Shown piece by piece: positions 12,186 through 63,835 of a DNA stretch of 64,000 bases. Origin of the DNA: Chloroflexota bacterium (GTDB lineage: Bacteria > Chloroflexota > Chloroflexia > Chloroflexales > Herpetosiphonaceae). The position numbers were made by a program, and so were the translations under genes. The notes under the pieces were generated by a model. That model made no database searches. It was given only the letters and a program-made list of their open reading frames with translations, and was not told the DNA's origin. The stretch is from positions 248,001 through 312,000 of the forward strand of contig JAIUOC010000005.1 in NCBI GenBank assembly GCA_020161265.1, written 5' to 3'. How positions within the stretch are numbered: the first letter of the stretch is position 1; each line of letters begins with the position of its first letter.

Positions 12186-12250
12186 CGCCAGGGATCAGGG
12201 CTTGGGGATCAGGGATCAGTTAAATTTTTACTACTGATCCCTGATCCCTA
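12186..12250. repeat. Intergenic heptamer repeat pair forming a hairpin (mosaic family, copy 1)
   Basis: GGGGATCAGGGATCAGT at 12204-12220 is followed by its reverse complement at 12233-12249 around an AT-rich loop, giving a 17-bp stem. It lies directly after lipA and is the simplest example of the inverted GGGATCA arrays found at gene ends across the window. Confidence 0.8.
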
Positions 12251-12353
12251 GCGCCTGAATCCTGTGCTCTACTATCCTCTGCATTAAACTCACTCCTATA
12301 TTCTTGGTTTTTTGTGCTTCATCCCTCATAATTCATAATTCATACTTTAGTCT

Positions 12354-12383
12354 TTGACGGCTGACTTTTAAGTATGGTACAAT
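12354..12383 (+). promoter_or_regulatory. Predicted promoter for the T-box-ileS transcript
   Basis: TTGACG (12354-12359), 18-base spacer, TACAAT (12378-12383). It lies immediately upstream of T-box stem I, as expected. Confidence 0.65.
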
Positions 12384-12390
12384 CGGGTCA

Positions 12391-12669
12391 CAGGCGTTGA
12401 CGGAGCCGAGTAGTTGGGCTAAAACCTGAATCAGCGAGCGTGCAAATGGTGTGAGGCACGTATCAGCAACCCCAACCAAAATCTCTCCTGAGCCGAACGC
12501 TGAACCCTTTGGCAGTAAGCGAACCGGATATCCCCCGTTATCGGGATGACGTTGTGATGGCAACGGCTTAAAGTGGGTAGTTCGTGCAAACGACTATCAA
12601 GCAGGGTGGTACCGCGAGGTCTTTTCGATAACCTCGTCCCAGCAGTGTGGGGCGGGGCTTTGTGTTTTT
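12391..12669 (+). promoter_or_regulatory. T-box riboswitch, isoleucine specifier (AUC), controlling ileS
   Basis: The leader has the T-box sequence AGGGTGGTACCGCG at 12603-12616, which binds the free CCA end of uncharged tRNA. Stem I pairs GGAG (12402-12405) with CTCC and GTTGGG (12413-12418) with CCCAAC (12471-12476). Between these lies the specifier loop with AGTA on one side and AAA-ATC on the other, so the specifier codon is AUC at 12481-12483, reading Ile. A terminator follows: CCTCGTCCC (12632-12640) pairs with GGGGCGGGG (12649-12657), then CTTTGTGTTTTT. Uncharged tRNA-Ile should favour the antiterminator and switch ileS on. The paired segments were drawn by hand. Confidence 0.92.
12632..12669 (+). 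terminator. T-box-controlled terminator before ileS
   Basis: Nine-bp stem 12632-12640/12649-12657 with loop AGCAGTGT and a U-rich tail to 12669. Its 5' arm lies just after the T-box sequence, so antitermination and termination are mutually exclusive. Confidence 0.85.
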
Positions 12670-12688
12670 AGTCAACGAGGAGTCAACA

Positions 12689-15600
12689 ATGGCGTTTGCA
12701 GCAGTTGATCCCAAGGTGTCGTTTCCGACGCTTGAGGATGAGATCGCCGCTTGGTGGGAAGCCCATGGCATCGTCAAAAAGACGCTTGACCATGGTGATG
12801 CTTCGCGTCCGTTTGTCTTTTTTGAAGGGCCACCCACGGCCAATGGTCGCCCAGGGATTCACCACGTCGAGGCTCGTTCGTCTAAAGATATTATGGTGCG
12901 TTTCAACCGCATGCTTGGTAAAAAGGTCATCGGCGCTCGCGGTGGCTGGGATACCCACGGCTTGCCAGTTGAACTGGAAGTTGAAAAGAAATTAGGCTTC
13001 GCGGGCAAACCTGACATTGAAAAATATGGCATCACCGAATTTAACGCTGCCTGCCGTCAATCAGTCTGGGATTACATCCAAGAATGGGAAAAGCTGACCC
13101 AGCGGATCGCCTTCTGGATCGATCTCGAAGATCCCTACATCACCTACGATAACAAATATATTGAATCATTGTGGTGGATCTTCAAGCAATTGCACGAGCG
13201 TGAATTGCTGTATCGTGATTATAAAGTGACGATGCACTGCCCACGCTGTGGCACATCGCTCTCAGACCACGAGGTCGCTCAAGGCTACCAAGATAACACC
13301 GACGATCCGTCGGTGTGGGTACGCTTTCGGCATACACCGAGCGACCATGCTTTAGATGCTCAAGTTGCCGATGCCGCCTTCTTGGCTTGGACAACCACAC
13401 CTTGGACTCTGCCAGCCAACGCTGGTTTGGCGGTCAATCCTGAGGCGACGTATGTGCTGGCCGAGCACGAAGGCCAGCGCTATATCTTGGCTGAAGCTTT
13501 GGTTGGGGCGGTGTTGGGCGAATCTGCCACCACACTTGCTAGCTTTGTTGGTGCTGATTTGCGTGGCTTGCGCTATACGCCGCTGTTTCCTGGGGTTGGC
13601 GATAATGGGGCAGCGATCGATTTAAGCAGTGCTCATCGCGTCGTTGCCGATGAGTTCGTCTCGTTGGAAGACGGTACCGGGATCGTGCACATCGCGCCAG
13701 CCTATGGCGACTTGGAAATTGGCCGCAAGTATGGCTTGCCAACCTTGTTCTCGGTCGATTTAGCGGGCAAAGTGCTGGGCAGCTTTGAAAGCTTTGGCTT
13801 TGCAGGCATGTTTTTCAAAGAAGCTGATCCGAAAATCACGCGCTATTTGAAAGAACAAGGCTTGTTGTTCAAATCAGGGCGAGTGCTGCACACCTATCCA
13901 TTCTGTTGGCGCTGTAAAACGCCGTTGCTGTTCTATGCCAAGCAATCGTGGTATATCCGCACAACCGCCTTGAAGCAACAGTTGATCGCCAATAATAAAA
14001 AGATCAATTGGGTGCCTGAGCATATCCAAGCTGGGCGTTTTGGCAATTGGCTCGAAAATAACATCGACTGGGCGATCAGCCGTGAGCGTTATTGGGGCAC
14101 GCCGCTGCCAGTTTGGACCTGCGATAACTGTCAGCATATCGATGTACTTGGTTCGTTGGCGGAGCTTGGCGAACGTTGGGGCCAAGATACTGCCAATCTT
14201 GATATGCACCGCCCATTTGTGGATGCACCTAGCTGGTTGTGTCCTGAGTGCGAAGCTGGCACGATGCAGCGCATTCCCGATGTGGCTGATTGTTGGTTTG
14301 ATTCAGGTGCGATGCCAGTGGCACAGTGGCATTACCCATTTGAAAATCAAGAACTGTTTGAAGTTGCCGGCCAAGCCGATTTTATCTCGGAAGCAATCGA
14401 CCAAACTCGTGGTTGGTTCTACACCTTGCATGCAGTTTCAACCTTGCTCTTCGATCGCCCAGCCTACAAGAATGTGATCTGTTTGGGTCACTTGTTGGAT
14501 GGCAAAGGCGAGAAAATGTCCAAATCCAAGGGCAACATCGTTTCGCCATGGGAAATGGTCGAGAAGTATGGCGCTGATGCGGTGCGCTGGTATATGTTTG
14601 CTGCTGGTCAGCCCTACAATCCACGCCGTTTCTCAGCCGATTTGGTCAGCGAATCGTTGCGTCAGTTCTTGTTGACCTTGTGGAATACCTATAGCTTTTT
14701 CACAACTTACGCCAATGTTGATGGTTGGACACCTGAATTGGCACAAGGCGATTTGGCAGCGATCGATCGCTGGGCGCTGGCACGGCTCAACGCCTTGGTG
14801 CGCGATGTGCGCAACGATCTGAGCAATTACGATATGAATACGCCAGCCAAGCGGCTCGAACAATTCGTTGACGAGCTTTCAAACTGGTATGTGCGGCGTA
14901 ATCGGCGGCGTTTCTGGGGCAGCGACATGAACGGCGATAAGCAAGCTGCCTATTCAACCTTGTACACCTGTTTGGTCACGATTTCCAAACTGATGGCTCC
15001 ATTCACGCCATTTGTGGCCGAATCGCTGTATCAAAATTTGGTGCGCAGCTACGACCAAACTGCCGCCGAAAGCGTGCATATGGCGCTGTACCCTGAAGCC
15101 AATTTGGCGCTAATCGATGAAGAATTGATTCGCAAGACCGACTTATTGCTCAAGGCTGTGAGCTTGGGCCGCGCCGCTCGCAAGAACGCTGGAATGCGCG
15201 TGCGTCAACCACTCAGCGAAGTTTTGGTGCGCTTGCCTCGCGGTGAGCAACTTGACGAACTGAGTGCTGAACTGAGTGACGAACTCAATATCAAGTCGGT
15301 GCGCTGGCTCGGTGTGGGCGATGGCTTGGTCAGCTATCGCTTCAAGCCTAATTTGCGCTCGGTTGGCAAAAAGTTTGGCAAACTGGTTCCAGCATTGCGC
15401 GAAGTGTTGGCGAATCTTAGCAGCGAGCAAGCCGCCGATGCAGCGCATAAAGTTGAAACCGGGGCCAGCTTCGAGGTTGTAGTCGAAGGCGAAACATTAA
15501 CCTTGGCCGCCGACGATGTATTGATGGAAGCTTCATCGCCCGAAGGCTACGCTGTGGCCGAAGGCGAGGGCTTGTTGGTAGCCTTAGTTACGACGCTGAC

Positions 15601-15874
15601 TGATGAATTGCTGCGCGAAGGCATCGCCCGCGAAATCGTGCGCAACCTCAACGATGCACGTAAGGCCGCCGATCTGGCGATCACCGACCGCATCAACGCA
15701 ACCTTGGGAACCGAGGTTGATTTAGCGGCAGTTGTGGCTGAATACGCCGAGTACATCAAAGCCGAAACCTTGTGTGAGGTATTGAGCGTTGGTGATGCTA
15801 GTGCCGACCATCACACCAGCAGCATGGAATTGGAACAAGGCAAACTAAGCCTCGGCATTAGCAAAATCGGCTAA
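12689..15874 (+). CDS. ileS: Isoleucyl-tRNA synthetase, type 2 (GXHH active-site variant)
   Basis: A 1061-residue class I synthetase that charges tRNA-Ile. The start at 12689 has CGAGGAG upstream; a longer reading from 12647 lies inside the terminator. The ATP-binding HIGH motif, normally H-x-G-H, reads G-I-H-H at residues 56-59 (PPTANGRPGIHH). Next come WDTHGLPVE, the editing domain with TTPWTLP and GTGIVHIAP, and KMSKSKGN near residue 608. Length and motifs fit the eukaryote-like IleRS2 branch, known for mupirocin resistance; the GXHH swap has been linked to very high resistance. Expression is governed by the upstream T-box. A perfect hairpin follows the stop. Confidence 0.97.
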   Translation: MAFAAVDPKVSFPTLEDEIAAWWEAHGIVKKTLDHGDASRPFVFFEGPPTANGRPGIHHVEARSSKDIMVRFNRMLGKKVIGARGGWDTHGLPVELEVEKKLGFAGKPDIEKYGITEFNAACRQSVWDYIQEWEKLTQRIAFWIDLEDPYITYDNKYIESLWWIFKQLHERELLYRDYKVTMHCPRCGTSLSDHEVAQGYQDNTDDPSVWVRFRHTPSDHALDAQVADAAFLAWTTTPWTLPANAGLAVNPEATYVLAEHEGQRYILAEALVGAVLGESATTLASFVGADLRGLRYTPLFPGVGDNGAAIDLSSAHRVVADEFVSLEDGTGIVHIAPAYGDLEIGRKYGLPTLFSVDLAGKVLGSFESFGFAGMFFKEADPKITRYLKEQGLLFKSGRVLHTYPFCWRCKTPLLFYAKQSWYIRTTALKQQLIANNKKINWVPEHIQAGRFGNWLENNIDWAISRERYWGTPLPVWTCDNCQHIDVLGSLAELGERWGQDTANLDMHRPFVDAPSWLCPECEAGTMQRIPDVADCWFDSGAMPVAQWHYPFENQELFEVAGQADFISEAIDQTRGWFYTLHAVSTLLFDRPAYKNVICLGHLLDGKGEKMSKSKGNIVSPWEMVEKYGADAVRWYMFAAGQPYNPRRFSADLVSESLRQFLLTLWNTYSFFTTYANVDGWTPELAQGDLAAIDRWALARLNALVRDVRNDLSNYDMNTPAKRLEQFVDELSNWYVRRNRRRFWGSDMNGDKQAAYSTLYTCLVTISKLMAPFTPFVAESLYQNLVRSYDQTAAESVHMALYPEANLALIDEELIRKTDLLLKAVSLGRAARKNAGMRVRQPLSEVLVRLPRGEQLDELSAELSDELNIKSVRWLGVGDGLVSYRFKPNLRSVGKKFGKLVPALREVLANLSSEQAADAAHKVETGASFEVVVEGETLTLAADDVLMEASSPEGYAVAEGEGLLVALVTTLTDELLREGIAREIVRNLNDARKAADLAITDRINATLGTEVDLAAVVAEYAEYIKAETLCEVLSVGDASADHHTSSMELEQGKLSLGISKIG

Positions 15875-15883
15875 TCCGAGTAC

Positions 15884-15926
15884 AATCAATGCGGCGCATA
15901 CAAAGCCTGTATGCGCCGCATTGATT
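15884..15926 (+). terminator. Hairpin terminator downstream of ileS
   Basis: Perfect 19-bp stem: 15884-15902 with 15908-15926, loop AAGCC, starting ten bases after the ileS stop. The following tract (CATTGTTTG) is only moderately U-rich, so termination could be partial and allow some read-through into the DUF952 gene. Confidence 0.75.
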
Positions 15927-15949
15927 CATTGTTTGCCAAAGGAATGTCC

Positions 15950-16285
15950 ATGTTATTGCACATTATTTCCCCCACCGAGTGGCATCAAGCCCTAGCTGCT
16001 GGTGAATATCGCCCAGCCTCGTTGGCCGACGAAGGCTTTATCCATTGTTCAACTCCTGAGCAAGTGTTAACTCCCGCCAATTCGTTTTATCGTGGCCAAG
16101 CTGGCTTGCAGTTGTTGTGTATCGATCCTGCGCTGCTTCAATCCGAATTAGTATATGAAGATCTTATAGCGTCGGGTGTACAATTTCCGCATATCTATGG
16201 GCCGCTCAACCTTGATGCCGTGTATAAAATTGTGGAGTTTCCGGTTAATCCCGATGGCACATTTGATTTGCCAAAGCTAGATTAA
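15950..16285 (+). CDS. DUF952 family protein
   Basis: A 111-residue protein matching the DUF952 family: HIISPTEWHQALAAGEY at the start, then ADEGFIHCSTPEQV, and PHIYGPLNLDAV near the end, all characteristic. The fold is related to ADP-ribosyltransferase-like RNA phosphotransferases by literature, but no activity is established. ATG 15950 is preferred since AAAGGA lies six bases upstream; ATG 15944 is also in frame, while the outermost reading at 15911 sits inside the ileS terminator hairpin and is not credible. Confidence 0.85.
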   Translation: MLLHIISPTEWHQALAAGEYRPASLADEGFIHCSTPEQVLTPANSFYRGQAGLQLLCIDPALLQSELVYEDLIASGVQFPHIYGPLNLDAVYKIVEFPVNPDGTFDLPKLD

Positions 16286-16286
16286 C

Positions 16287-16568
16287 TGGGGATCAGGGGG
16301 TTGGTTGTTGGGGATCGGTAATAACTATGGTTGTTATCGATCTCTATGTTGATCCACGAAGCGCACGAAGGTCACGAAGGGGTCAGGGGCCAGAGTTTAG
16401 GGATCAGGTTTTGTAACAGTGAAGCGCATGAAGTGTAGGTTTTTAGCTACGTATAATCCTCGGTCCTTATGCTATCGGATTAACGTCTGACCCCTGAATC
16501 CTGACCCCTAGCTTCAACTCTGCGTCAAAAACCGACCCCCAATTCCCAACCCCTATGTTCTATGCTCT
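16287..16568. repeat. Intergenic mosaic repeat, copy 2
   Basis: Opens with GGGGATCAGGGGG and GGGGATCGG, contains an inverted GATCGGTAATAAC/GTTGTTATCGATC hairpin (about 16314-16342), then CACGAAG-type nonamers (16354-16380), an internal GGGGTCAGGGG array, and closes with inverted TGACCCCTGAATCCTGACCCC (16487-16508) plus a TATGTTCTATGCTC module. No coding sequence is visible in these 280 bases. Confidence 0.8.
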
Positions 16569-17654: not shown

Positions 17655-17679
17655 GATCGCTCCCTTTGCCGCCTATCGA

Positions 17680-19329: not shown

Positions 19330-19383
19330 TACGTGCCTCCTCGATTTATTTTTTTGTAATTACTTTAGTGTCCCCCATGTGGG

Positions 19384-20241: not shown

Positions 20242-20303
20242 ATGTTCCCCTTAGAAATTGCCAATTTGCAAATCGCCAAACGCATGGTAATTATTGTAAT
20301 GAG

Positions 20304-20326
20304 CAATGTTACCACTGTCAACATTG
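20304..20326. promoter_or_regulatory. Candidate operator between the hydrolase and TetR genes
   Basis: CAATGTT (20304-20310) and AACATTG (20320-20326) form a perfect inverted repeat with a nine-base spacer, in the 95-base divergent region, just before the TetR gene. Size and symmetry suit a TetR dimer. Binding is inferred. Confidence 0.45.
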
Positions 20327-20336
20327 AGGTAGCTAC

Positions 20337-21797: not shown

Positions 21798-22003
21798 AGG
21801 GGTCAGGGGTCAGGGATCAGGATTGAAACCACGAAGGGCGCGAAGCACACGAAGGATTCTCATTCCCGCATTCGTGCATGTTATTCCTAATTCCGCTAGA
21901 GTAAAGTCTGCCCCTGATCTCTAACCCCACCCTCATAACTTTGCGCCTCTGCGTTAAATAGTCTGACTTCCTAGCCCCTGATCTCTGACCCCTGACCCCT
22001 AGC
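21798..22003. repeat. Intergenic mosaic repeat, copy 3 (overlaps the end of the GT4 gene)
   Basis: Left array GGGGTCAGGGGTCAGGGATCAGG (split form; 21799-21821), then CACGAAG-type nonamers (21829-21855), a TGCGCCTCTGCGTTAA module near 21940, and an inverted right array (21972-22003). The right array encodes the last residues and stop codon of the glycosyltransferase. Confidence 0.85.
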
Positions 22004-23257
22004 CTCAACAAGTTCCGCGTACACCGCCCGAATTTGGGCATATTTGTGCTCCCAGGTTAGCTCGGCCAAGGTTTGGGTGTAGCCCTGCTGGCCAAGTCGT
22101 TGGGCTAATTCAGGGTTGGTCAGCAATTTGGTCAAGGCTGCTGTAAGTTGGGCAACATTGCCATAATCAACCAACAAGCCTGTTTCGTTCTCACGAATCA
22201 CCGCTGGAACGCCGCCAGCTCTGGCCCCAATCACAGGCAAACGATACAACCAAGCCTCAAGATAGACAATTCCAAATGAATCGGTGCGTGAGGGCATGGC
22301 GAACAGCGTAGCAGCGGCCAAAGCATCGCGTTTGCGTGCTTGCGGCGCTCGCGCAAACACATGAATCCGCTGTTTGCTGACAGGATCAAGCGTTTCCCAA
22401 AGCTGCTCAAAATGGGCCATCGGCGTGCCAACCATCACCAGATGCTCGCTGCGCCCGTTCGCCCAAAGCTGCTCCATCGCACGAATCAGGTCGAATGCAC
22501 CTTTTTCTTTGGCCAAGGTGCCGATATACAGCACAAATGGTTGTTGAATGCCGGTTTCTTGGCGAAAACGCTCGGCATTGCCGCCCGCCAATTCATGCGG
22601 CTCAACTCCCACCCCAATGCAACGCAGGCTTGATCGCGAAATTCCACAATCAGCCAGATAATCGGCCTCAAGCGGCGTTTGCACGATTACCCGATCAGCT
22701 TGCTGCATTAACTTAATATGATGCGGCATCGTGTAATAGCGCACTAACGAGCGATCGCCAGGCACGCCTAAATGGACGTATGGCGAAAGTACAAACGGAA
22801 TTTTAGCCTGCTTGGCATATTTTAGCGCCGGAATCAGCATAAAATCTAAGGTAATGTTGGCTGCATGGATCAGGTCAAATTGACCAACTTCTTGGCTTAG
22901 GGCACGATTGAAGGTTGGCATGCGCGGCGTAATTTGACTGAGCGCCATCAACAAGCTGCTGGTGGCTGGCAAACGCCCAAATTCGAGCATTGCCCGACGC
23001 AAAATTGGGTAGACCAAGGCTGGGCCTGGTGCACGCACGACCGGAAAGCGCCGAATCGCTACGCCATTGTGTTGCTCAGTTGGCTGATCGATGGTGCGCC
23101 GACCGCTCGCCCAAAAATGGTCAAGATCCCATGCATTGCTTGTCCAAACATCGACCGTATGCCCTTCGGCTGCCAACCGTTCAGCAATTACTTGGCAAAC
23201 CTGCTCCGAACCGCCGATATACGGGTAATAGCGCTGAATAACTTGTAAAATCCGCAT
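21971..23257 (-). CDS. Glycosyltransferase family 4
   Basis: A 428-residue GT-B retaining glycosyltransferase, cytoplasmic, acting on nucleotide sugars for surface polysaccharide or glycolipid. The N-terminal GYY/GGSEQ motif (YYPYIGGSEQV, residues 10-20) and the C-terminal donor site (FVLYIGTLAKEKGAFDLI near 250 and the E-x7-E motif MPSRTDSFGIVYLEAW near 340) are present. The last eight codons and the TAG stop come from an intergenic repeat, so the tail GQGSEIRG is probably recent. It starts nine bases after the stop of the PLD-domain gene, suggesting an operon. Confidence 0.9.
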   Translation of the reverse strand: MRILQVIQRYYPYIGGSEQVCQVIAERLAAEGHTVDVWTSNAWDLDHFWASGRRTIDQPTEQHNGVAIRRFPVVRAPGPALVYPILRRAMLEFGRLPATSSLLMALSQITPRMPTFNRALSQEVGQFDLIHAANITLDFMLIPALKYAKQAKIPFVLSPYVHLGVPGDRSLVRYYTMPHHIKLMQQADRVIVQTPLEADYLADCGISRSSLRCIGVGVEPHELAGGNAERFRQETGIQQPFVLYIGTLAKEKGAFDLIRAMEQLWANGRSEHLVMVGTPMAHFEQLWETLDPVSKQRIHVFARAPQARKRDALAAATLFAMPSRTDSFGIVYLEAWLYRLPVIGARAGGVPAVIRENETGLLVDYGNVAQLTAALTKLLTNPELAQRLGQQGYTQTLAELTWEHKYAQIRAVYAELVEARGQGSEIRG

Positions 23258-24481: not shown

Positions 24482-24504
24482 ATTCCAGCCTTTCGATATG
24501 TGGG

Positions 24505-24608
24505 TAGGGGGTCAGGGGCTAGGGATTAGATTTTTTTAGCCACGAATTGCACGAATAATCTTATAACCTCTAACCCCATATATGCTCTATGCTCTATGCT
24601 CTATGTTC
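24505..24608. repeat. Intergenic mosaic repeat, copy 4
   Basis: GGGGGTCAGGGGCTAGGGATTAG (in parts, 24506-24528) followed by a T7 tract, AGCCACGAATTGCACGAAT (24538-24556), TAACCTCTAACCCC, and a TATGCTC/TATGTTC heptamer run (24583-24606). It separates the PLD gene from the small helical-protein gene. Confidence 0.75.
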
Positions 24609-25100
24609 TTATCCTCGCCAACCACGACGACGCTTGATGCGGTGTGAGCGAGGTCGAGCATTTGCGCCCAACATTTGGCCCATACGGTCGAGTTTGGCAG
24701 CGATCACACTTTGTTTGGCGGCTTGACCTGCCCCATCAAGCACATTCTGGCCAAGCTTGCTCATTTGTGCGACCACACTTGGAATTAATTGGCTTAGGGC
24801 ATTGGCTGCCGCCTGACCAACTTGGGCAGCTGGCTCGGCGGTTTGCGGTGTTTCAGTAACAATCGCTTGATGCGCTTGATTCAGCGCTGAATTGGCTGCT
24901 GCCAGCACCTCGCTTACCTCAACAATATCATCACGATTGGCTTGACGCGCCGCTTGGAGTACATCGGCCTCGGCCACCCCAGCCTGAAGTTGTTGCTCAG
25001 CCCAACGCAACAGCGCTTTAGCCGTCACATCAGTCAAATTGTCGGTCAAACGTTCATTGTTGGCGAGGCGTTCAAATGCCGCTTGGCGATCAAGGCTCAT
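24609..25100 (-). CDS. Hypothetical helical protein downstream of the PASTA kinase
   Basis: A 163-residue protein, not recognised. Start at ATG 25100 is set by AGGAGG eight bases upstream (a reading from 25148 lacks an RBS). Residues 1-110 look like continuous amphipathic helix, rich in Ala and Gln; the last 20 residues are strongly basic (PRSHRIKRRRGWRG). No membrane segment or Cys. It lies 53 bases after the PASTA kinase stop on the same strand and could be co-transcribed with it. The basic tail could bind nucleic acid or membrane, which is speculation. Confidence 0.6.
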   Translation of the reverse strand: MSLDRQAAFERLANNERLTDNLTDVTAKALLRWAEQQLQAGVAEADVLQAARQANRDDIVEVSEVLAAANSALNQAHQAIVTETPQTAEPAAQVGQAAANALSQLIPSVVAQMSKLGQNVLDGAGQAAKQSVIAAKLDRMGQMLGANARPRSHRIKRRRGWRG

Positions 25101-27518: not shown

Positions 27519-27526
27519 AATTTGCG

Positions 27527-27664
27527 AGGGGTCAGGGGTCAGGCTCTAGGGATCAGGAACGTAGCTAGATTATTGAGTTTATAGCAATTCATACCTAGCT
27601 AACTTATCATTCAAACCAAACAATGGATACATGCTGACCCCTAGTTCCTAGTCCCTAATCCCTC
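27527..27664. repeat. Intergenic mosaic repeat, copy 5
   Basis: Left array GGGGTCAGGGGTCAGG with CTAGGGATCAGG (27527-27557) and inverted right array (27632-27664), about 75 bases of AT-rich sequence between them. It fills the gap between trpE and the YprB-like gene. Confidence 0.8.
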
Positions 27665-29210: not shown

Positions 29211-29318
29211 AGGGGGTCAGGGGTCAGATGCTAGGGACTAGTCCGAGGAATGTAAAATAAAAGATCAACCATAAATCAAGCCAACTCCTGACCCCTGATT
29301 CCTAGCCCCTGATACCTA
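29211..29318. repeat. Intergenic mosaic repeat, copy 6
   Basis: GGGGGTCAGGGGTCAG and TAGGGACTAG (29212-29242) against inverted CCTGACCCCTGATTCCTAGCCCCTGA (in parts, 29287-29313). It separates the Rrf2 gene from trpE, both on the minus strand. Confidence 0.8.
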
Positions 29319-29744
29319 AATATAATACATCGGCGAATCGAGTTGCTGGTGTTTACGTTGACAGAGATCGGCGATGGTCATTTCGCTGAGATGGCCTTCG
29401 ATCACGGCACGTAATTCGCCCCAAACTTCGCCCAACAAACCAGCATCGAAGGTATCGAGGCTTGCGCCTTCGGGTGTTGGCAACAATGGCCCTTCCAACA
29501 CCAAAATGGCATCAAGCAAGCTAATTGCTTGGGGCGGGCGAGCCAACTGATGACCACCTTGAGGGCCACGCACGCTGGTAATCAGGCCAGCTTTGCGTAA
29601 TGCGATTAACAATTGATTGAGATAATTTTCTGAGATAGCTTGACGCTCGGCAATTTCGTGGCTTTGCACCAAACCTTCGCCATAGTGCTGAGCCAAATCA
29701 AATAACGCTCGCACGCCATATTCACCTTTGGTTGATAATCGCAT
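29316..29744 (-). CDS. Rrf2 family transcriptional regulator
   Basis: A 142-residue winged-helix regulator: MRLSTKGEYGVRALFDLA at the start and the HTH QAISENYLNQLLIALRKAGLITSVRGPQGGHQLARP (residues about 33-70, quoted in outline) are typical of Rrf2. Rrf2 proteins such as IscR, NsrR and CymR sense iron-sulfur clusters or cysteine status. Here only one Cys is present (DLCQRK near 129), so the three-Cys cluster site of IscR is missing and a CymR- or RirA-unlike mechanism must be assumed. Its targets are not visible. Confidence 0.92.
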   Translation of the reverse strand: MRLSTKGEYGVRALFDLAQHYGEGLVQSHEIAERQAISENYLNQLLIALRKAGLITSVRGPQGGHQLARPPQAISLLDAILVLEGPLLPTPEGASLDTFDAGLLGEVWGELRAVIEGHLSEMTIADLCQRKHQQLDSPMYYI

Positions 29745-34237: not shown

Positions 34238-34256
34238 TTAATCACTCGATTTTCAT

Positions 34257-34358
34257 GCCCTCACTCCCTAGCCCCCTCTCCCGCAAGCGAGCGAGGGGGA
34301 ACCACGAAACCAAATGCCCCTCGCTCGCCGCTGCGGGAGAAGGGTTGGGGGTGAGGGC
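34257..34358. repeat. Large palindromic intergenic element
   Basis: A 102-base imperfect inverted repeat: GCCCTCACTCCCTAGCCCCC... (from 34257) pairs with ...TTGGGGGTGAGGGC (to 34358), with a second inner stem GCGAGCGAGGGG (34287-34298) against CCCCTCGCTCGC (34317-34328). It is unlike the GGGATCA mosaics. It may be a REP/MITE-like element and could also terminate the FHA-regulator transcript. It sits in the 227-base gap before the dynamin gene. Confidence 0.75.
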
Positions 34359-34464
34359 ACGTTTATGGCACGAGTTGTGATTAATCAACAATAGATTGCA
34401 ACTTTAGGTGAGCAATCACAGTCAGATTGAGTAGCACCCTACTCATAGAGATAAGGACTAATCC

Positions 34465-37899: not shown

Positions 37900-38115
37900 C
37901 AATCGGGGATCGGTTTTGATCCACTAATGACACGAAGGGAACGAAGGCTGAAACCACAAAGAACGCGAAGATCGAGAAGGGCCGTTTTTGCCACAGATTG
38001 GCCCAAATTTGCTTGATTCTGTTTCTTCTGCATTCATCCCTCATAATTCATCATTCATACTTTCCCTGCCCCCCAACAACCGATCCCCAATTCCTATATT
38101 CTTTGCTCTATGTTC
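37900..38115. repeat. Intergenic mosaic repeat, copy 7
   Basis: Left GGGGATCGG; CACGAAGGGAACGAAGG nonamers (37930-37946) and a second set near 37955-37980; a CCACAGATTG module (37990-38000); GATTCTG; TTCATCCCTCATAATTCATC (38034-38053); inverted CCGATCCCC (38080-38088); then TATTCTTTGCTCTATGTTCT (38096-38116). A second copy of the TCATCCCTCATAATTCATCC module is at 38123-38142. The rest of the 450-base gap before the M14 gene shows no coding or RNA gene. Confidence 0.8.
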
Positions 38116-38302
38116 TGACGTGCATCCCTCATAATTCATCCTTTCAATTTAATCGCATATCGCCAAAGCTGCATTACGAATACTTAATAATGATAAAATA
38201 GAGCCTCAATGAAGAGTCGGTATTCCCCAAAACTTCCCTAGCGTAAAAATCGAAGGAGATTCTGGCACGGCGCTAGGCTCACACTGTGTGGAGGTCGCTT
38301 GT

Positions 38303-41488: not shown

Positions 41489-41502
41489 TTCGAGAAGCGG
41501 GG

Positions 41503-41757
41503 GATTGGGGATCGGTGGTTGGGGATCGGTAACGTGGTTGTTATCGATCCCTTTTTTGATCCATGAAGGCAATTTTAGCCACGAATTGCACGAATTGCAC
41601 GAATTCCATGCATGCTTATTTTAGCCACAGATTGACACAGATTTTTTAGATTCTGTTCCTACTGCCTTCATCCCTCATAATTCATCCTTCATCCTTTTCC
41701 TTATGTTCTACGTTCTTAATACTGACCCCTGACCCCTGATCCCTGACCCCTACTTAT
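41503..41757. repeat. Intergenic mosaic repeat, copy 8 (most complete)
   Basis: Order: GGGATTGGGGATCGG arrays (41500-41530); TTAGCCACGAATTGCACGAA nonamers (41575-41605); TTAGCCACAGATTGACACAG (41633-41652) with GATTCTGTTCC; CTTCATCCCTCATAATTCAT (41672-41691); TATGTTCTACGTTCTTA (41703-41719); and the inverted array at 41722-41751, whose minus strand reads as four G-runs with 3-4 base loops. Confidence 0.85.
41522..41557 (+). terminator. Terminator of the M14 gene built from a mosaic repeat
   Basis: GGGATCGGTAAC (41522-41533) pairs with GTTATCGATCCC (41540-41551) at 11 of 12 positions, loop GTGGTT, followed by TTTTTT (41552-41557). It is part of repeat copy 8. Confidence 0.75.
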
Positions 41758-41796
41758 CAATTATCGGATAAAATAGAACCGTATTCAGAAATAGTC

Positions 41797-45812: not shown

Positions 45813-45843
45813 CGCGAGGTAGGTAGCTTATGCCTACCTCGCG
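45813..45843 (+). terminator. Intra-operon hairpin after the sugar-binding protein gene
   Basis: CGCGAGGTAGG (45813-45823) and CCTACCTCGCG (45833-45843) form a perfect 11-bp stem, loop TAGCTTATG, 41 bases after the stop. The tail TTGTATC is weakly U-rich, so it is better read as a partial terminator or 3'-end stabiliser. Confidence 0.65.
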
Positions 45844-45857
45844 TTGTATCATATGGT

Positions 45858-46090
45858 TGTCGGGGATCGGTTGTTGGGGATCGGGAAGGTATGAAGGGTG
45901 AGGCCAGAAGGCAACGCTCAAAGGTTAACGCAGAGGGAAAAAGGCTATAGGCTTTTGGCTATCGGACAGCAGGAATAGAATCTAACGAATCTGTGCTAAT
46001 CTGTGGCTAAAAAATAATTAGTCGTGTAATTCGTGCAATTCGTGGCTAAAAAAACTTAACTTCGTGCTCTTCGTGTCCTTCGTGGATCAA
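45858..46090. repeat. Intergenic mosaic repeat, copy 9 (inside the amino-sugar operon)
   Basis: GGTTGTCGGGGATCGG and TTGTTGGGGATCGGG (45856-45885), then AACGCAGAGGG, a GAATAGAATCTAACGAATCTG module with CTGTGGCTAAAAAA (45974-46015, inverted relative to copy 8), and nonamers GTGCAATTCGTGGC and CTTCGTGTCCTTCGTGGATC (46034-46088). The whole 429-base gap between the binding protein and the permease gene is otherwise empty apart from the hairpin at 45813 and the sequence carrying the permease RBS. Confidence 0.8.
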
Positions 46091-46200
46091 ACATAGCACA
46101 GAGAACAGCGGAATCGACCAGATTCACTTGTTCTCTGGACTCTGTTCTCGGTAATCGCACAGTGCTTTGGTCGCACTGTTCCTCAGCAAGGAGTTGTGGC

Positions 46201-53600: not shown

Positions 53601-54750
<1,150 letters not shown>

Positions 54751-55496: not shown

Positions 55497-55614
55497 CGCA
55501 AAAACTCCTTGCTTTTGATTGCGAGTATAACATAAGCCTCAACCCCAGCTTTGGTAGAAAATGTCAAGTTTTATATGGATTTAGAGCCTATACTTCGGGC
55601 TAGGGTTGCTAGAC

Positions 55615-55680: not shown

Positions 55681-55714
55681 CTTGCTATGTTCAATGATGA
55701 TCAGGAGGCTAGGA

Positions 55715-57796: not shown

Positions 57797-57808
57797 AACG
57801 GATAGATT

Positions 57809-58852: not shown

Positions 58853-59613
58853 CCTTGTTGATTTTATGCGGGTTTGCCTTGTTGGCGGGTTTTATTGATG
58901 CGGTGGCTGGTGGCGGTGGCTTAATTCAGTTGCCACCCTTGTTAATTACCCAAAAAGATCTTGCCCCAGCCTTTATCCTTGGAACCAATAAATTTGCCGC
59001 AGTTACGGGTACGGCCACGGCAGCGGTCAATTACAATCGGCGAGTCAAAGTCAATTGGCGAATCGTCGTGCCGGGTATGATCAGTGCGGCAATATGTTCG
59101 TGGTTAGGGGCGCGAGCCGTCAGTTTGATTCGACCAGAGCTTTTTCGACCAATTATGCTGGTGTTGATTATCGCTATGGCGATCTATACCTTTAAACGCA
59201 AAGATTTTGGTAGCGCTGCCCGCCAAACCAAAGCCTCAGCCAAGCCGATTCCATATGTTTTGGTTTTTTGTGGATTAATTGGTTTTTATGATGGAATTTT
59301 CGGGCCTGGCACTGGCAGTTTGTTAATGTTTGCCTTTGTAGGCATTTTGGGCTTCGATTTTTTGCAAGCCTCAGCCACCACCAAAATTATTAATGTAACC
59401 ACCAACGTTGCAGCTTTGGTTCAATTTCTCAGCGTAGGCCAAATTATTTGGCATTTGGCTGTGCCAATGGCGATTTGCAATATTGTGGGCGGCATCATTG
59501 GTTCGCGCATGGCCATGGCCAAGGGCAGCCAGTTTGTGCGCGTGATCTTTTTGGTGGTGGTAGTTGGGGTGATTTTGCGCTATGGCTACGATATCGTTCG
59601 AGAGTTTATCTAG
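58849..59613 (+). CDS. TSUP (TauE/SafE) family membrane permease
   Basis: A 254-residue protein with about eight hydrophobic segments in two repeats; AGFIDAVAGGGGLIQLPPLL and YDGIFGPGTGSLLMFAFV are the paired Gly-rich TSUP motifs. Family members export or import sulfite, thiosulfate, sulfoacetate or similar anions. The ATGA overlap with the pseudouridine synthase gene shows co-translation. The downstream metH and repeat lie convergent to it. Substrate unknown. Confidence 0.9.
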   Translation: MTLLILCGFALLAGFIDAVAGGGGLIQLPPLLITQKDLAPAFILGTNKFAAVTGTATAAVNYNRRVKVNWRIVVPGMISAAICSWLGARAVSLIRPELFRPIMLVLIIAMAIYTFKRKDFGSAARQTKASAKPIPYVLVFCGLIGFYDGIFGPGTGSLLMFAFVGILGFDFLQASATTKIINVTTNVAALVQFLSVGQIIWHLAVPMAICNIVGGIIGSRMAMAKGSQFVRVIFLVVVVGVILRYGYDIVREFI

Positions 59614-59640
59614 AAAGTATGGTTTAAAGCAGAGTATTGA

Positions 59641-59725
59641 GTAGGGGCTAGGGATCAGAGGTCAGGGGGCAGAACTTCCATGAAGCGCTAGCCCTTGATC
59701 CTTGATCCCTGGCCCCTGATCCTTA
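59641..59725. repeat. Intergenic mosaic repeat, copy 10 (between convergent genes)
   Basis: GGGGCTAGGGATCAGAGGTCAGGGGG (59644-59670, outlined) against the inverted array TAGCCCTTGATCCTTGATCCC... to 59724. It can fold as a long hairpin and probably terminates both TSUP and metH transcripts. Confidence 0.75.
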
Positions 59726-59730
59726 AGTCA

Positions 59731-62700
59731 TCAGTTTGCGATTTCAGCCACATCGCTTTCGGCGCGTTCGGCGACAGAGCCAATTGAGAAATATTTAGCA
59801 TCAGGGTGGTGCACGACGATGGCGGCGGTGCTTTGCTCAGGGTCAAGCTGGAAGGCCGAGGTCAAACTGACATCGATCTCTTTGGCGGGCAAAACGCTAA
59901 ACAGCTTGGTATGCTCCTCAAGATCGGGGCAGGCTGGGTAGCCCCACGAATAGCGTTTGGCCTGATAGCTCAAACCTAAGCCTTGGCTGATAATTTTGTT
60001 GGTAAATTCAGCGAGTGCTTCGGCATAGGTCGTGCTCAAGCCATGGCTAAAGAACGATTCGCTATAATCGTTGGCTTTTTGCAAGCTTTCGACGCGCTCA
60101 GCTGCAACATGGCCCATGGTGACGATTTGCAAACCAACCACATCGAACTCGCCGCTTTCAACTGACCGGAAGTAGTCAGCTAGACATAAGCGTTCGCGAC
60201 TTGGTTGGCGTGGGAAGGCGAAGCGGGTCAGCACGGTTTTGCGATCCTTAGGATCGTAGACCACCAACTCTTCGCCAGCGGCTTGGGCTGGAAAGTAGCC
60301 ATAGACTGCCTGCGGTTGCAGCCAGCCATTACGCTTGGCATCATCGATCATGCGGCGTAACCGTGGTTTGAACTCATCATTGACCACCCGATCATATTCA
60401 GCGCCCTTGAGGTTTTTGATGCCCCAACCCAAGCGCCAAAGCGTATTCAAGTCGAGATATGGTGTAACATCATCGAGCCGAATTTTCTTGGCGACTTGTA
60501 CGCCCCAGAATGGTGGGGTTGGCACGGGATTATCGTTACGGGTGGCTGAGCGTTCGCCACTAGGATTATTTTTGCCCAGTTTTTCCAACAGCGTGCGACC
60601 ACGCTCTGGCGCTTTCAACGATTCGCGGGCAGCATCTTCCATAACGCTCAAATATTCTTCACGCACGGCTGGGTCGGAGAGTTTATCCATGGTTTCGAGG
60701 CCTTCAAAGGCATCTTTGCAATAGAAAACCCCGCCAGTGTAGGCCACTTCTGGCTCAGGGAAGAGAATGCGTTGACCATATTGGCGATTGATTGCCGCGC
60801 CACCAACCAGCACTGGGAAGGCCAAATTACGCTTGTGTAACTCCTGCACACACAATGGCATTTGCTTGGATGTGCTGACCAACAAAGCCGAAAGCCCAAT
60901 TGCATCGGCCCCAACTTCAAGCGCTTTTTCGATGATCGTATTGACTGGAACTTGCTTGCCAAGGTCGTAAACGGTGTAGCCGTTATTCGACAAAATCGTG
61001 TAAACCAAGTTTTTGCCAATGTCATGTACATCGCCATAGACCGTGGCTAGCACAACTTTGCCCTTGGTTGTGCCTTCGACCCGATCAAGGAATTGTTCGA
61101 GGTGGGCAACGGCACGTTTCATCACTTCGGCAGATTGCAGCACATACGGCAGAATCAATTCGCCAGCGCCGAATTTATCGCCAACTTCTTTCATGGCTGG
61201 CAGCATTACGCCATTGAGAATATCGATGGCTGCTTCGCCTTGGGTTTGGCCGCCAGCTTCGCGCCATGCCCGCGATTCGTCGATATCGGCTTCGATGCCA
61301 TCTTTTTTGCGATGCAGAATTTTCCAATGAATTCGTTCTTCGGCATTCATGGTAGCGGTTGGGTCAACTTTGGCTTCGCCAGCAACCGCTGTATTGGCCT
61401 CAAAATATTGGATGAAACGCGGCAAGGCTTCTTCGTCGCTGTTGAAAATCACATCTTCACAGACCTTGCGGGTTTCGGCGGAGATTTCAGCGAATGGCAT
61501 GACGTGGGTTGGATTGATGATCGCTGCGTCAAGCCCGGCCTTGACTGCGTGATACAAAAAGACCGAGTTGAGCGCTGAGCGGGCGTGCGGCTGAATCCCG
61601 AATGAGAGATTCGAGACCCCGAGCACCGTCATTGCGCCGGGAATTTCAGCCTTGATCCGCCGAATACCTTCCATGGTTTCTTTGGCCGATTCGCGCAATT
61701 CGGCTTGGCCTGTGGTTAATGGGAAGGTCAGGGCATCAAAGAGCCAAGCATCATTTTGCACACCATATTCTTGGCGGCCCATTTCGGCCATGCGTTTGGC
61801 GATGACAACCTTGGCTTCAGCAGTATGCGCCATGCCTTCTTCATCGATCGTCAAGGCAATAATTGCCGCGCCATAACGAGCAACCAAGGGCATGGTTTTA
61901 TCGAATTTCTGTTCGCGCCCGCCTTCGAGCGAGGTTGAGTTGATGATCGCGCGGCCTGGATAGATTTGCAGCGCCGCGTCAATCACTTCATGCTCGGTTG
62001 AGTCGATTACCAACGGCAATTCAACGCCCATGGTTAATTTTTTGAGCAACTTTTGCATTTGCTCTTTTTCATCGGGGCGTTCGGTCATTGCAACACACAC
62101 ATCGAGTGCGTGCGAGCCACTATCGGCCTGCTCACGAGCAATTTGCAACACACCATCATAATCATCTTTGAGCAACAACTTTTTAACTTTGCGTGAACCG
62201 ACCGAGTTGACTCGTTCGCCAATGATAAATGGACCTGGATCTTGATTGAGCTGCAAGGAGCGCATGGCTGATGAAACTTGGGGAACCGTAGGAGCTTGAT
62301 TGGGTTTTGGTGGGCAATCGTTGCCGATTGAATCGACCAACGCCCGCAGGTGAGCCGGAGTTGTACCACAACAACCACCAACGACGCGCACGCCCAAATC
62401 CTTGACAAACTCAGTCAAGCTTTTGGCAAAGCCTTCTGGCTCTAATGGAAAGACGGTTTCGCCATTGACTTCCATTGGCAAACCAGCGTTTGGTATACAC
62501 GAAATTGGCAATTTGGAATTAGCGGCGAGGTAGGTGATGGCGGGCCGCATATGTTCGGGGCCAGTCGAACAATTCAAGCCAATCACATCAACATCGGCCA
62601 AAGCTTCGAGTGTAACCATCGTGGCCTGAATATCAGTGCCTAGCAACATCCGCCCTGAGAGATCCAAAAAGACTTGGGCTTGAATCGCAATATCAGGGCG

Positions 62701-63273
62701 TTTGAGTTCGGCCAAGCCGCGGCGAATACCATCGATTGCCGCTTTGACTTCGAGAATATCGACGCTGGTTTCAACCAAGAGCACATCAACCCCACCTTCC
62801 ACTAAGGCGATGGTTTGCTCTTTGAAGGTATCAGAGAGTGCATCCCAGGTAATATTTGAGAGGGTTGGGTCGTCGGATGAAGGTAAAAAGCCGGTTGGCC
62901 CCATCGAGCCAGCCACGAAACGTTTGCGACCATCTTTGGCTTGGTAGCGGTCGGCGACACTGCGGGCTAGTTGGGCAGCTTTGAAATTTTGCTCGTAAGT
63001 TTTATCAGCCAAGCCCCATTCATGCAAGCGAATGCGGGTTGATTGGAAGGTATTGGTTTCCAACACATCAACCCCAGCTTCCATAAACGAGCTATGAATT
63101 TGTTCGATGATATCGGGGCGCGTCAAGGCGAGATAATCGCGTGCGCCGAAGTACTGTTCGCCGCCAAAATCCTCAGGCTTGAGATCGTACAAATCCAAGC
63201 TAGTACCCATTGCGCCGTCGTAAATCAGAACACGTTTCGCCAATTCGGCGACGTAAGGTTTTATGCTGGTCAT
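59731..63273 (-). CDS. metH: Cobalamin-dependent methionine synthase
   Basis: An 1180-residue enzyme transferring methyl from methyltetrahydrofolate to homocysteine. Modules in order: homocysteine domain (about 10-330) with zinc Cys in LNCSTGPEH (near 233) and GGCCGTT (near 303); pterin domain (about 355-620) with GERVNSVGSRK; cobalamin cap and binding domain (about 640-890) with the B12 ligand His in DVHDIGKNL (near 750); and the SAM-binding reactivation domain (about 920-1170). All four are intact. ATG 63273 is chosen; the reading from 63309 lacks an RBS. Expression is controlled by the SAM-I riboswitch upstream. Confidence 0.96.
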   Translation of the reverse strand: MTSIKPYVAELAKRVLIYDGAMGTSLDLYDLKPEDFGGEQYFGARDYLALTRPDIIEQIHSSFMEAGVDVLETNTFQSTRIRLHEWGLADKTYEQNFKAAQLARSVADRYQAKDGRKRFVAGSMGPTGFLPSSDDPTLSNITWDALSDTFKEQTIALVEGGVDVLLVETSVDILEVKAAIDGIRRGLAELKRPDIAIQAQVFLDLSGRMLLGTDIQATMVTLEALADVDVIGLNCSTGPEHMRPAITYLAANSKLPISCIPNAGLPMEVNGETVFPLEPEGFAKSLTEFVKDLGVRVVGGCCGTTPAHLRALVDSIGNDCPPKPNQAPTVPQVSSAMRSLQLNQDPGPFIIGERVNSVGSRKVKKLLLKDDYDGVLQIAREQADSGSHALDVCVAMTERPDEKEQMQKLLKKLTMGVELPLVIDSTEHEVIDAALQIYPGRAIINSTSLEGGREQKFDKTMPLVARYGAAIIALTIDEEGMAHTAEAKVVIAKRMAEMGRQEYGVQNDAWLFDALTFPLTTGQAELRESAKETMEGIRRIKAEIPGAMTVLGVSNLSFGIQPHARSALNSVFLYHAVKAGLDAAIINPTHVMPFAEISAETRKVCEDVIFNSDEEALPRFIQYFEANTAVAGEAKVDPTATMNAEERIHWKILHRKKDGIEADIDESRAWREAGGQTQGEAAIDILNGVMLPAMKEVGDKFGAGELILPYVLQSAEVMKRAVAHLEQFLDRVEGTTKGKVVLATVYGDVHDIGKNLVYTILSNNGYTVYDLGKQVPVNTIIEKALEVGADAIGLSALLVSTSKQMPLCVQELHKRNLAFPVLVGGAAINRQYGQRILFPEPEVAYTGGVFYCKDAFEGLETMDKLSDPAVREEYLSVMEDAARESLKAPERGRTLLEKLGKNNPSGERSATRNDNPVPTPPFWGVQVAKKIRLDDVTPYLDLNTLWRLGWGIKNLKGAEYDRVVNDEFKPRLRRMIDDAKRNGWLQPQAVYGYFPAQAAGEELVVYDPKDRKTVLTRFAFPRQPSRERLCLADYFRSVESGEFDVVGLQIVTMGHVAAERVESLQKANDYSESFFSHGLSTTYAEALAEFTNKIISQGLGLSYQAKRYSWGYPACPDLEEHTKLFSVLPAKEIDVSLTSAFQLDPEQSTAAIVVHHPDAKYFSIGSVAERAESDVAEIAN

Positions 63274-63326
63274 GACGCATTCCCTTATTGGTATGGCCTG
63301 CGCTGCCAAAGCGCAAAACCAAGGTT

Positions 63327-63354
63327 AAAAAAAACTCCTCGCGCACTGGCGAGG
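63327..63354 (-). terminator. SAM-I riboswitch expression-platform terminator
   Basis: On the minus strand CCTCGC and GCGAGG (63349-63354 and 63337-63342) form the stem and an eight-base U tract (63334-63327) follows. It stands between the riboswitch and metH, as a ligand-controlled terminator should. Confidence 0.88.
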
Positions 63355-63375
63355 GCTTCAATCATTGAGTTGCCA

Positions 63376-63475
63376 CTCATCTATCAGCGCGATTGCTGCT
63401 GGAAGAAGCACCTTTCTCGGCGAGACGGTTGCTGGAGTGTCATCGGGCCAGATCCCTCGACTCCTCGTGATGAGG
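63376..63475 (-). promoter_or_regulatory. SAM-I (S-box) riboswitch upstream of metH
   Basis: Read on the minus strand it has the S-box sequence: P1 5' strand CCTCAT (63475-63470), CGAGGAG, the conserved GAGGGATCTGGCCCGATGA, CCAGCAACC, then AGGTGCTTCTTCCAGCAG and the P1 3' strand GATGAG (63381-63376). About 100 nucleotides, followed by a terminator. High SAM should switch metH off. Confidence 0.95.
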
Positions 63476-63490
63476 TATTCAATTATGGGC

Positions 63491-63518
63491 AGTATAGCAA
63501 ATCTTAGTTAAAAAGCAA
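63491..63518 (-). promoter_or_regulatory. Predicted promoter of the SAM riboswitch-metH transcript
   Basis: Minus strand TTGCTT (63518-63513), 16-base spacer, TATACT (63496-63491), ending about 15 bases before the riboswitch. Confidence 0.55.
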
Positions 63519-63589
63519 AAAACCACGAATAAAGTAGGGGTGATAGTACGCATGAGGATGTGGTTTGGTGGAGATAGGCGAGTGGTTAA

Positions 63590-63665
63590 TGGTGGGCCAT
63601 GAGGGATTCGAACCCCCAACCAAGCGGGTATGAGCCGCGTGCTCTAACCGTTGAGCTAATGGCCC
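63590..63665 (-). tRNA. tRNA with CAU anticodon (tRNA-Ile2 candidate, or elongator tRNA-Met)
   Basis: A 76-base tRNA with encoded CCA: acceptor GGGCCAT/ATGGCCC, D-stem GCTC/GAGC, anticodon loop CTCATAC (anticodon CAT), T-stem with TTCGAAT loop. The arrangement TTAGCTCA..GGTTAGAGCA and GCG.CTCATA..CGCTTGGT is close to bacterial tRNA-Ile2, in which TilS converts C34 to lysidine so that it reads AUA. The first anticodon-stem pair (C-T) is mismatched. An initiator is ruled out by the paired 1-72 position. Confidence 0.9.
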
Positions 63666-63795
63666 TTCTCACCGGAGTGTATAGTACCACACTTTTTAGA
63701 CAATGGTGCAGTATTTCAAGCACAAATTCAGAGGAACGCAGGGTTTTCGTCCTACGTTCCTCTCGATTGTAATGTGGTGGATTCTAAAGGCTCTA

Positions 63796-63835
63796 ACCAT
63801 TGAACTCTGAACCCCGAATCCTGAACCCTACTCCC
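63796..63835. repeat. Mosaic-type A' array fragment after the S9 peptidase gene
   Basis: CTCTGAACCCCGAATCCTGAACCCTACTCCC (outlined) is a degenerate inverted GGGATCA array just beyond the stop of the minus-strand gene. Confidence 0.5.

Follow-up and report, generated by a model that had tools for sequence, protein, structure and literature searches.

This report concerns a family of intergenic mosaic elements found in a 64,000-nucleotide stretch of a genome of the Herpetosiphonaceae (positions 248001-312000 of contig C5; the genome comprises 6.04 Mb in 13 contigs). We call this whole stretch the window, and the genome that holds it the host, which we treat as a Herpetosiphon. The elements are composed of tandem arrays of 7- or 9-nucleotide units, here termed modules, and all modules share one polarity with few exceptions: G/A-rich strands are found on the left and C/T-rich strands on the right, even when the facing modules are unlike. 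Both arms follow a common preferred order when read inward from the genes, the arrays lie directly next to stop codons and keep a distance from start codons, and the sites persist between two species while their contents change. In our view the best explanation, to which we would give about an even chance, is that these are non-coding, non-autonomous, nested foldback repeats that are tolerated at the 3' ends of genes and have a putative mobile origin.

A shared polarity and a mirrored order of modules

The 7-nucleotide units are CTGACCC (module C), CCGATCC (Q), CTCATCC (M) and CTATGTT (T), and those of 9 nucleotides are CTTCGTGNN (H), ATTCGTGNN (E), AATCTGTGN (K) and CTCTGCGNN (U). The sign '>' marks a unit as written, as in right arms, and '<' its complement, as in left arms; '>' is the C/T-rich strand of all modules but K (AATCTGTGN), whose orientation was set by its similarity to E. 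A further module, S, is near-palindromic; it was excluded from the polarity pair counts (338:19 and the order shuffles) and included in the counts of module order and in the per-module counts of unlike pairs. The words that define the modules were chosen among those enriched in the very gaps in which they were then counted, a circularity against which we guarded by a word-free test, by patterns searched in whole genomes and by a held-out test of order. Genes were called by a codon-based script rather than a standard gene finder, and the host sample covers 1.25 of 6.04 Mb.

Short tandem periods are far more frequent in the 599 N-free gaps of this sample (139,656 bases) than in shuffled sequence (1400 period-7 windows against 13, 506 against 4 for period 9, 1002 against 6 for period 14, 467 against 13 for period 21), and all other periods between 4 and 20 have at most 60 windows. 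The preliminary description of the window had taken the elements for a family of mosaics. That they are mosaics of modules, and that the family is genome-wide, is supported. With up to 2 mismatches, CTGACCCCTGACCCCT matches the whole host genome 317 times (164 forward, 153 reverse) and the reversed pattern only twice (1 + 1). The module family is present in all six Herpetosiphon genomes searched, each of which has 33 to 149 matches to CTGACCCCTGACCCCT with 1 mismatch allowed; at the same setting there are some matches in 20 of 41 genomes (the host and 40 relatives of its order). The elements were also said to avoid coding sequence, and they do (GGGGTCA occurs at 0.58 per kb between genes and 0.08 in genes, CACGAAGG at 0.39 and 0.02). 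A BLAST search of plasmids with the element at 41500-41770 returned no match.

Polarity is the most regular property of the family. Among pairs of oppositely oriented arrays in 625 host-sample gaps, 338 run '<' then '>' and 19 the other way, an excess of 319 that compares with a maximum of 85 in 2000 within-gap shuffles of order; pairs of a single module give 78:4 in the host, and 184 gaps of a second species, represented by genome G003, give 152:4. The two orientations are perfectly segregated in 85 of the 98 host gaps that have both. The word-free test in the host yields 35:2 for period-7 and 7:1 for period-9 pairs. At the scale of whole genomes, GGGGTCAG..CTGACCCC has 60 matches in the six genomes (overlapping ones counted) and the opposite order a single one, which looks like a separate GCCCTCACC element. 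Foldbacks of CACGAAG-type 9-mers gave 25 matches, spread over eight of the 301 Chloroflexota genomes scanned (six Herpetosiphon and two others), and none of the 301 has such a foldback in the opposite order.

The same polarity is followed by modules without regular GGG runs when they are paired with unlike modules (T 140:2, H 193:8, E 57:2, K 56:1); these counts, like those of module order, pool the host and G003 and count orthologous gaps twice. The same module is found on both arms more often than expected for C (42 observed, 23.8 expected) and Q (5 and 2.0) in 138 gaps of the two genomes, and little or not at all so for M (9 and 7.4), T (9 and 9.3), H (21 and 22.7) and K (10 and 6.7). Polarity is therefore more than a matter of base pairing.

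Two general causes of the polarity were considered and rejected. The first is a purine skew common to intergenic DNA: in array-free gaps the eight inner tenths range from 0.494 to 0.504, and the first (0.470) and last (0.546) tenths depart in the direction opposite to that of the arrays. The other is a general property of hairpins or terminators: perfect hairpins in array-free gaps are not purine-first (28:29 in convergent, 55:40 in tandem gaps). Those in array-bearing gaps gave 2:4 and 8:2, respectively.

The preliminary description had the internal modules following one another in the same order. A preference does exist, but it is better described as an order that is mirrored between the arms and runs inward. 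Going from the gene towards the middle of the element, T precedes H (26:1) and C (21:6), Q precedes H (13:0), H precedes both E and K (16:1 each), E precedes K (8:1), and S comes after C (16:1) and U (13:0); preferences are weaker for C with H (28:14), M with U (16:10) and C with U (18:12). The order learned on host left arms agrees, once mirrored, with that of host right arms (110:36) and, applied to G003, with left arms (38:5) and right arms (47:14; together 85:19).

Persistent sites at gene ends and their changing contents

Arrays are present in 27 of 55 convergent, 47 of 220 tandem and 5 of 73 divergent host gaps of 80-300 bp. For gaps of at least 300 bp the corresponding figures are 1 of 7, 26 of 59 and 14 of 45 in the host, and 2 of 4, 9 of 17 and 12 of 16 in G003. 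Distances and terminator figures pool both genomes (94 tandem, 41 convergent and 31 divergent gaps, orthologs counted twice). In tandem gaps the first array begins a median of 7 bp past the stop codon and the arrays end 54.5 bp before the next start; in convergent gaps the medians are 12 and 7 bp from the two stops, and in divergent gaps 83 and 111 bp from the starts. Simple intrinsic terminators were detected at 5 of 80 convergent gene ends with arrays and 15 of 86 without (shuffled, 1 of 80 and 3 of 86), and at 11 of 95 tandem ends with arrays and 44 of 263 without (shuffled, 2 of 95 and 2 of 263); by this simple detector the elements themselves are not intrinsic terminators of the hairpin and T-run kind. 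Predicted folding is stronger in gaps with arrays (z -3.68 vs -2.06, 60 gaps each), and arm length in tandem gaps is independent of the direction of transcription (34.1 vs 35.7 bp).

Composites of several modules occur at many separate loci. An ectopic match exists for 119 of 123 array-bearing host gaps, the strongest extending up to about 150 bp, mostly at 79-93%. What we call the first composite, searched with a 66-bp probe, has 1 to 25 matches, many of them partial, in each of the six genomes; 19 fetched copies align to the consensus layout H< - C< - core - C> - U>, although some copies are mutually orthologous, some lack the outer H or U, and their ends are ragged. Its core lies in one gap only of the host sample, because the other copies fall outside the sampled stretches; two further cores were each found in 7 host gaps and in 2 and 4 gaps of G003 (alignments of at least 40 bp). 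RNAalifold predicts 21 pairs in the first composite, with one double change (consensus of 18 of the 19 copies; L294, whose left arm differs, was omitted), which gives no real support for a selected RNA structure.

We compared 198 gaps of contig C5 (at least 60 bp, N-free), 109 of which have an ortholog in the G003 stretch, counting as an array anything of at least 14 bp. Arrays occur in both genomes at 36 of the 109 gaps, in G003 only at 1, in the host only at 0 and in neither at 72. Median identity between the two genomes is 0.71 over the 36 array gaps, the coding flanks of which are 92.7% identical, and 0.95 in 63 array-free gaps. The module sets of orthologous arms are the same in 25 cases, overlapping in 20 and disjoint in 6, one arm being empty in 17; the number of units also differs between orthologs.

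Some sites illustrate this exchange. The gap at 27519 (GGGGTCA / TGACCCC foldback at 27527-27663 in the host) has GGGGTCA arms in the host, G003 and G002, and arms of the GGGGATCGG / CCGATCCC type on both sides in G001 and G004, despite flanks that are 97-98% identical between the host and G001; a single match to the interior of the version seen in G001 exists in each of G001, G004 and G005, and the remaining three genomes have none. At gap 29185 (a foldback of the same kind at 29211-29319), G004 alone among five genomes compared has GGGGATCGG / CCGATCCC arms on both sides. Gap 55497 lacks the element in the host and G001, and in G002 and G004 the element occupies the space between conserved gene-adjacent sequences. 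One site of G003 holds the first composite (reversed), and its host ortholog has other contents within the same outer GGATGAA array.

Possible origins and relation to known repeats

Similar repeats exist beyond Herpetosiphon. In two genomes from another family of the order, foldbacks of other heptamers (AGGTGCT, GGAGTCG, ATTGCAG) show the same polarity (8:0 and 10:2), in stretches chosen for holding heptamer matches. The 9-mer word is found in at least 118 stretches over many phyla; 80 listed ones were examined and, with 14 loci of the Herpetosiphon family set aside, the remaining 66 give a pair polarity of 36:9, all nine opposite pairs coming from three loci (L156, L171, L201). The 9-mer hairpins are strikingly alike across phyla (twenty stretches, most of them chosen for holding pairs). 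Ten viral contigs contain the word, and the two that have it on both strands show the same polarity. As separate observations, the hairpins of L154 and L166 (Endozoicomonas) and of L153, L168 and L195 (Syntrophobacteraceae) are flanked by similar sequence and may be ends of insertion elements, and at L158 (Bacteroidales, 3803-4515) the word recurs every 100-235 bp or so in an array of near-identical units.

The preliminary description had offered three guesses: a non-autonomous element, a chromosome-organising site or a shared 3'-end device. We think that the first is the best supported, given the dispersed multi-module composites. On the second, the one pertinent observation is the even split of the CTGACCCCTGACCCCT matches between the strands (164 and 153). 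Each element would have two inward-pointing arms built of short tandem arrays. Copies would disperse as composite units through a putative mobilising activity and would land mostly in existing elements, which could account for nesting, for the single polarity and for the persistence of sites, and deletions between short repeat units would trim them. Three of the eight clean indels described below, inside 9-mer arrays, and two between other direct repeats speak for such trimming; the resemblance of 9-mer hairpins in many phyla and the word in viral contigs also favour the scenario as a whole. Their persistence at gene 3' ends would be due mainly to insertions being tolerated there, and some may also help to end transcripts.

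Several observations weigh against this scenario. Polarity is broken in 13 of the 98 host gaps having both orientations, and simple nesting of complete inverted repeats predicts an association between arms that T and H do not show and M and K hardly show. Copies within the host are no more alike than non-orthologous copies in G003 (58.1 vs 57.7, p = 0.59, 36 elements), and the reverse test from the G003 side gives 63.95 vs 56.75 (p = 0.97). Recent bursts within a genome are therefore not visible, and the library of modules seems to be common to the species and not homogenised within each of them. Only 8 clean indels were seen in 144 gap comparisons, none of them a complete foldback of this family: one is a change of unit number, three lie within 9-mer arrays (all at gap 45772, from overlapping genome pairs), two lie between or beside other short repeats, one of 390 bp resembles gene sequence, and the only whole inserted element, in a TATGTTC array, belongs to the separate GCCCTCACC family. 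Neither a transposase nor a target-site duplication was demonstrated (a RAYT transposase was not searched for), nor was the clean insertion of any complete foldback of the family. Finally, the placement of the arrays fits a selected role at 3' ends, too. Recent gene conversion within the genome was also considered as the main source of module swaps, and is unsupported in the absence of any within-genome excess of similarity.

That selected role is the most serious competitor, and we hold it to be possible, if clearly less probable than tolerated foldback repeats. The arrays would be a candidate bidirectional device, selected to end or insulate transcripts through imperfect hairpins, through stalling at a G-quadruplex or R-loop, or through Rho loading on the C-rich half; any module would serve, so that modules would drift while sites stay. 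The proximity of the first arrays to stops (medians of 7-12 bp) and their distance from starts, the excess in convergent over divergent gaps of 80-300 bp, the somewhat lower frequency of intrinsic terminators where arrays are present and the stronger folding all argue for it, as does the joint change of both arms at gaps 27519 and 29185; in Xanthomonas, moreover, repeats able to form G-quadruplexes coincide with starts or stops of transcripts more frequently than control repeats do (Rehm et al. 2015, PMC4692102). However, many convergent and tandem gaps do without an array, long divergent gaps (at least 300 bp) can have one (14 of 45 in the host, 12 of 16 in G003), and gap 45772 already has a conserved terminator-like hairpin ahead of its mosaic in all six genomes. 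Array-free perfect hairpins lack the purine-first polarity, opposite arms are often made of different modules, only 1 of the 21 pairs of the first composite shows a double change, and arm lengths ignore the direction of transcription. The suggestion of a shared 3'-end device holds for placement near gene ends and is not supported as to function.

A purely mutational origin, in which units of 7 or 9 nucleotides multiply by slippage in place, inverted arms arise by template switching or snap-back synthesis, and nothing moves, seems to us quite unlikely. It would agree with the finding of the same architecture with different units in the other family of the order, with the variable unit number of orthologs (and the one indel that is purely of this kind), with the lack of homogenisation within genomes, and with a proposal, reported in PMC4692102, that links heptamer abundance to polymerase slippage. 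It does not lead one to expect composites with conserved non-repetitive cores at separate loci, closely similar 9-mer foldbacks in unrelated phyla, or a polarity and a mirrored order that extend across unlike modules. Very improbable, in our opinion, is the idea that a G-quadruplex function, as considered for GGGNATC repeats, accounts for the whole family. G-runs are indeed repeated in GGGGTCA and GGGGATC arrays and in some M arrays (GGGATGA), and placement and inverted pairs match those described in PMC4692102. Yet modules without regular GGG runs (GAACATAG, CACGAAGGA, CACGAATTG, CACAGATTG) keep the same polarity, and as the polarity and order rules hold for them too, quadruplexes cannot be the whole story.

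One may go further and regard all 7- and 9-mer foldbacks as one widespread class of bacterial non-coding elements with free unit sequence and fixed architecture (units of 7 or 9 nucleotides, purine-first arms, mirrored module order). Such a class would either pass between phyla through a mobiliser directed at the middle of copies already in place, or be produced by an activity that adds short repeats to both 3' DNA ends at a break. We find this joint reading rather doubtful. The polarity and order rules lend themselves to testing wherever a genome has repeats of this kind. The close likeness of 9-mer hairpins from unrelated phyla suggests a common non-coding element, which was not found in the literature searched. 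The sites also offer a natural experiment on how gene ends continue to function as their sequence is exchanged.

The elements share with eukaryotic foldback transposons, which have long inverted arms of short tandem repeats that vary between copies, the inverted arms of short tandem repeats; they are much smaller and bacterial, and neither a target duplication nor a coding copy was found. Set beside MITEs, which are defined by fixed terminal inverted repeats and a target-site duplication, the first composite shows a consensus layout over its 19 copies together with ragged ends. Dispersed heptamer arrays are also common to the short tandemly repeated repetitive (STRR) heptanucleotides of cyanobacteria, for which we know of no mosaic or mirrored arms. 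The closest described relatives are the G-rich heptamers GGGAATC of Xanthomonas and GGGGA(C/T)T of Nostoc (Rehm et al. 2015, PMC4692102). These are intergenic, lie near the 5' neighbouring gene whatever its direction and are few between divergent genes; inverted pairs number 70 and 75 in two Xanthomonas, positions are 83% conserved between species with varying length, and three heptanucleotides in Calothrix are mentioned (PMC4692102). The Herpetosiphon elements resemble them in their 7-nucleotide period, G-rich units, intergenic location, inverted pairs, placement, and conserved sites with varying length. They differ, as far as the excerpts of that paper go, in combining unlike modules of 7 and 9 nucleotides, several without G-runs, under a shared polarity and a mirrored order, in the different modules found at conserved sites, and in belonging to another phylum.

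Tandem 7-nucleotide units with a G-run, which define the class of PMC4692102, are found in C and Q and partly in M, and the over-representation in intergenic DNA, with a position closer to the 5' neighbour as read on the G-rich strand, is found as well; judged by sequence pattern and placement, C and Q are modules of that kind. The whole element falls outside the class, since T, E, K and most H units have no G-runs. The view that the family is undescribed must be restricted accordingly: it may stand for the polar mosaic, and does not for the G-rich heptamers and their placement, which resemble the Xanthomonas and Nostoc repeats. The polar, mirrored mosaic of 7- and 9-nucleotide modules and the exchange of modules at fixed sites were not met in the literature examined, part of which was available as excerpts. 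Five module strings were not found in the literature searched, and papers on Herpetosiphon or Chloroflexi repeats and on foldbacks describe no such mosaic in their titles and the beginnings of their abstracts. The over-represented oligopurine stretches of Chloroflexus and Roseiflexus are not, in the excerpts of that study, elements of the Herpetosiphon type (PMC4060949). The REP, BIME and REPIN families likewise are short palindromes that occur between genes in many copies and have no gene of their own (PMC3116915, PMC3733652). They are, however, according to the parts of these papers on which we draw, single palindromes of 20-40 bp, those of REP having GTAG or CGTC at one end (PMC3733652), whereas the Herpetosiphon arms are tandem arrays of several kinds of 7- and 9-nucleotide units. 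Neither tag is conspicuous in the first composite's consensus, for which no formal scan was made.

Individual elements of the window and neighbouring features

All ten gaps named in the preliminary description hold arrays, exactly where it placed them or a few bases off. It had also seen in each a G-rich heptamer array at one end and its reverse complement at the other, and six do have them, the G-rich array being at the left (12186, 16287, 21798, 27527, 29211 and 59641). The element at 12189-12348 has a GGGATCA array and its complement (12189-12220 and 12233-12264) followed by a TTCATCC-type array (12318-12348), and lies upstream of a T-box leader (12388-12644) that precedes a gene of 1075 codons. 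The one at 16287-16568 takes up the whole of a convergent gap between the two stops (Q< H< C< facing C> K> Q> T>), its outermost right module being TATGTTC; it is mostly gone from the G003 ortholog, where an inverted-repeat element of the GCCCTCACCCCC type is found. At 21798-22009 a GGGGTCA array at the left is followed by CACGAAG 9-mers and, at the right, by a CTGACCCC array, with an overlap of the stop end of the next gene. A short foldback, C< / C>, occupies the convergent gap at 59641-59727 and is replaced by an M< array in G003.

In the other four gaps the facing ends are not complementary G-rich heptamers. The element at 24500-24609 (gap 24505) has GGGGTCA at the left, CACGAATTG 9-mers, and a TATGCTC/TATGTTC array at the right. 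The mosaic of the divergent gap 37900 (37904-38151; Q< H< K< facing M> Q> T> M>) contains one unit each of GGGGATCGG and CCGATCCCC, along with TTCATCC and TATGTTC, and part of it (37985-38067) shares a K-linker-M segment with the mosaic at 41503-41753 (Q< H/E< K< facing M> T> C>), which has GGGGATCGG at the left and TGACCCC at the right. The mosaic at 45862-46090 (gap 45858; Q< U< S facing K> E> H>), with GGGGATCGG at the left and CACGAA-type 9-mers (as TTCGTG) at the right, lies between the terminator-like hairpin that follows the upstream gene (45813-45843, in gap 45772) and, ahead of the next gene, a leader that contains a CAGAGAACA/TGTTCTCTG inverted repeat (about 46094-46155), both conserved in the six Herpetosiphon genomes. 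Further traces are a weak array at 9477, a degenerate one at 53608 and a lone C> array at 63807-63838 on the forward strand.

A scan of the window against Rfam 15 at gathering thresholds gave five matches, none of them inside an element. Besides the T-box leader, the window has an S-adenosylmethionine (SAM) riboswitch on the minus strand (63374-63476) and two identical tRNA-Asp genes with starts 109 bp apart (7027-7212). A separate inverted-repeat element, with its C-rich arm first (GCCCTCACTCCC...GGGGGTGAGGGC), lies at 34256-34359, and relatives of it, some ending like GTAATGGTTTAT, occur in G001 and G003 within or next to TATGTTC arrays. A further dispersed repeat (GTGCAGGGGG..TGAAA.CC..CTGCGTTTCCC..GGACGGAAGGGTGG) is present in contig C3 of G000 (342437-342885 and 361340-362361), with similar stretches in gaps of G001 and G003 and, reversed, in G004.

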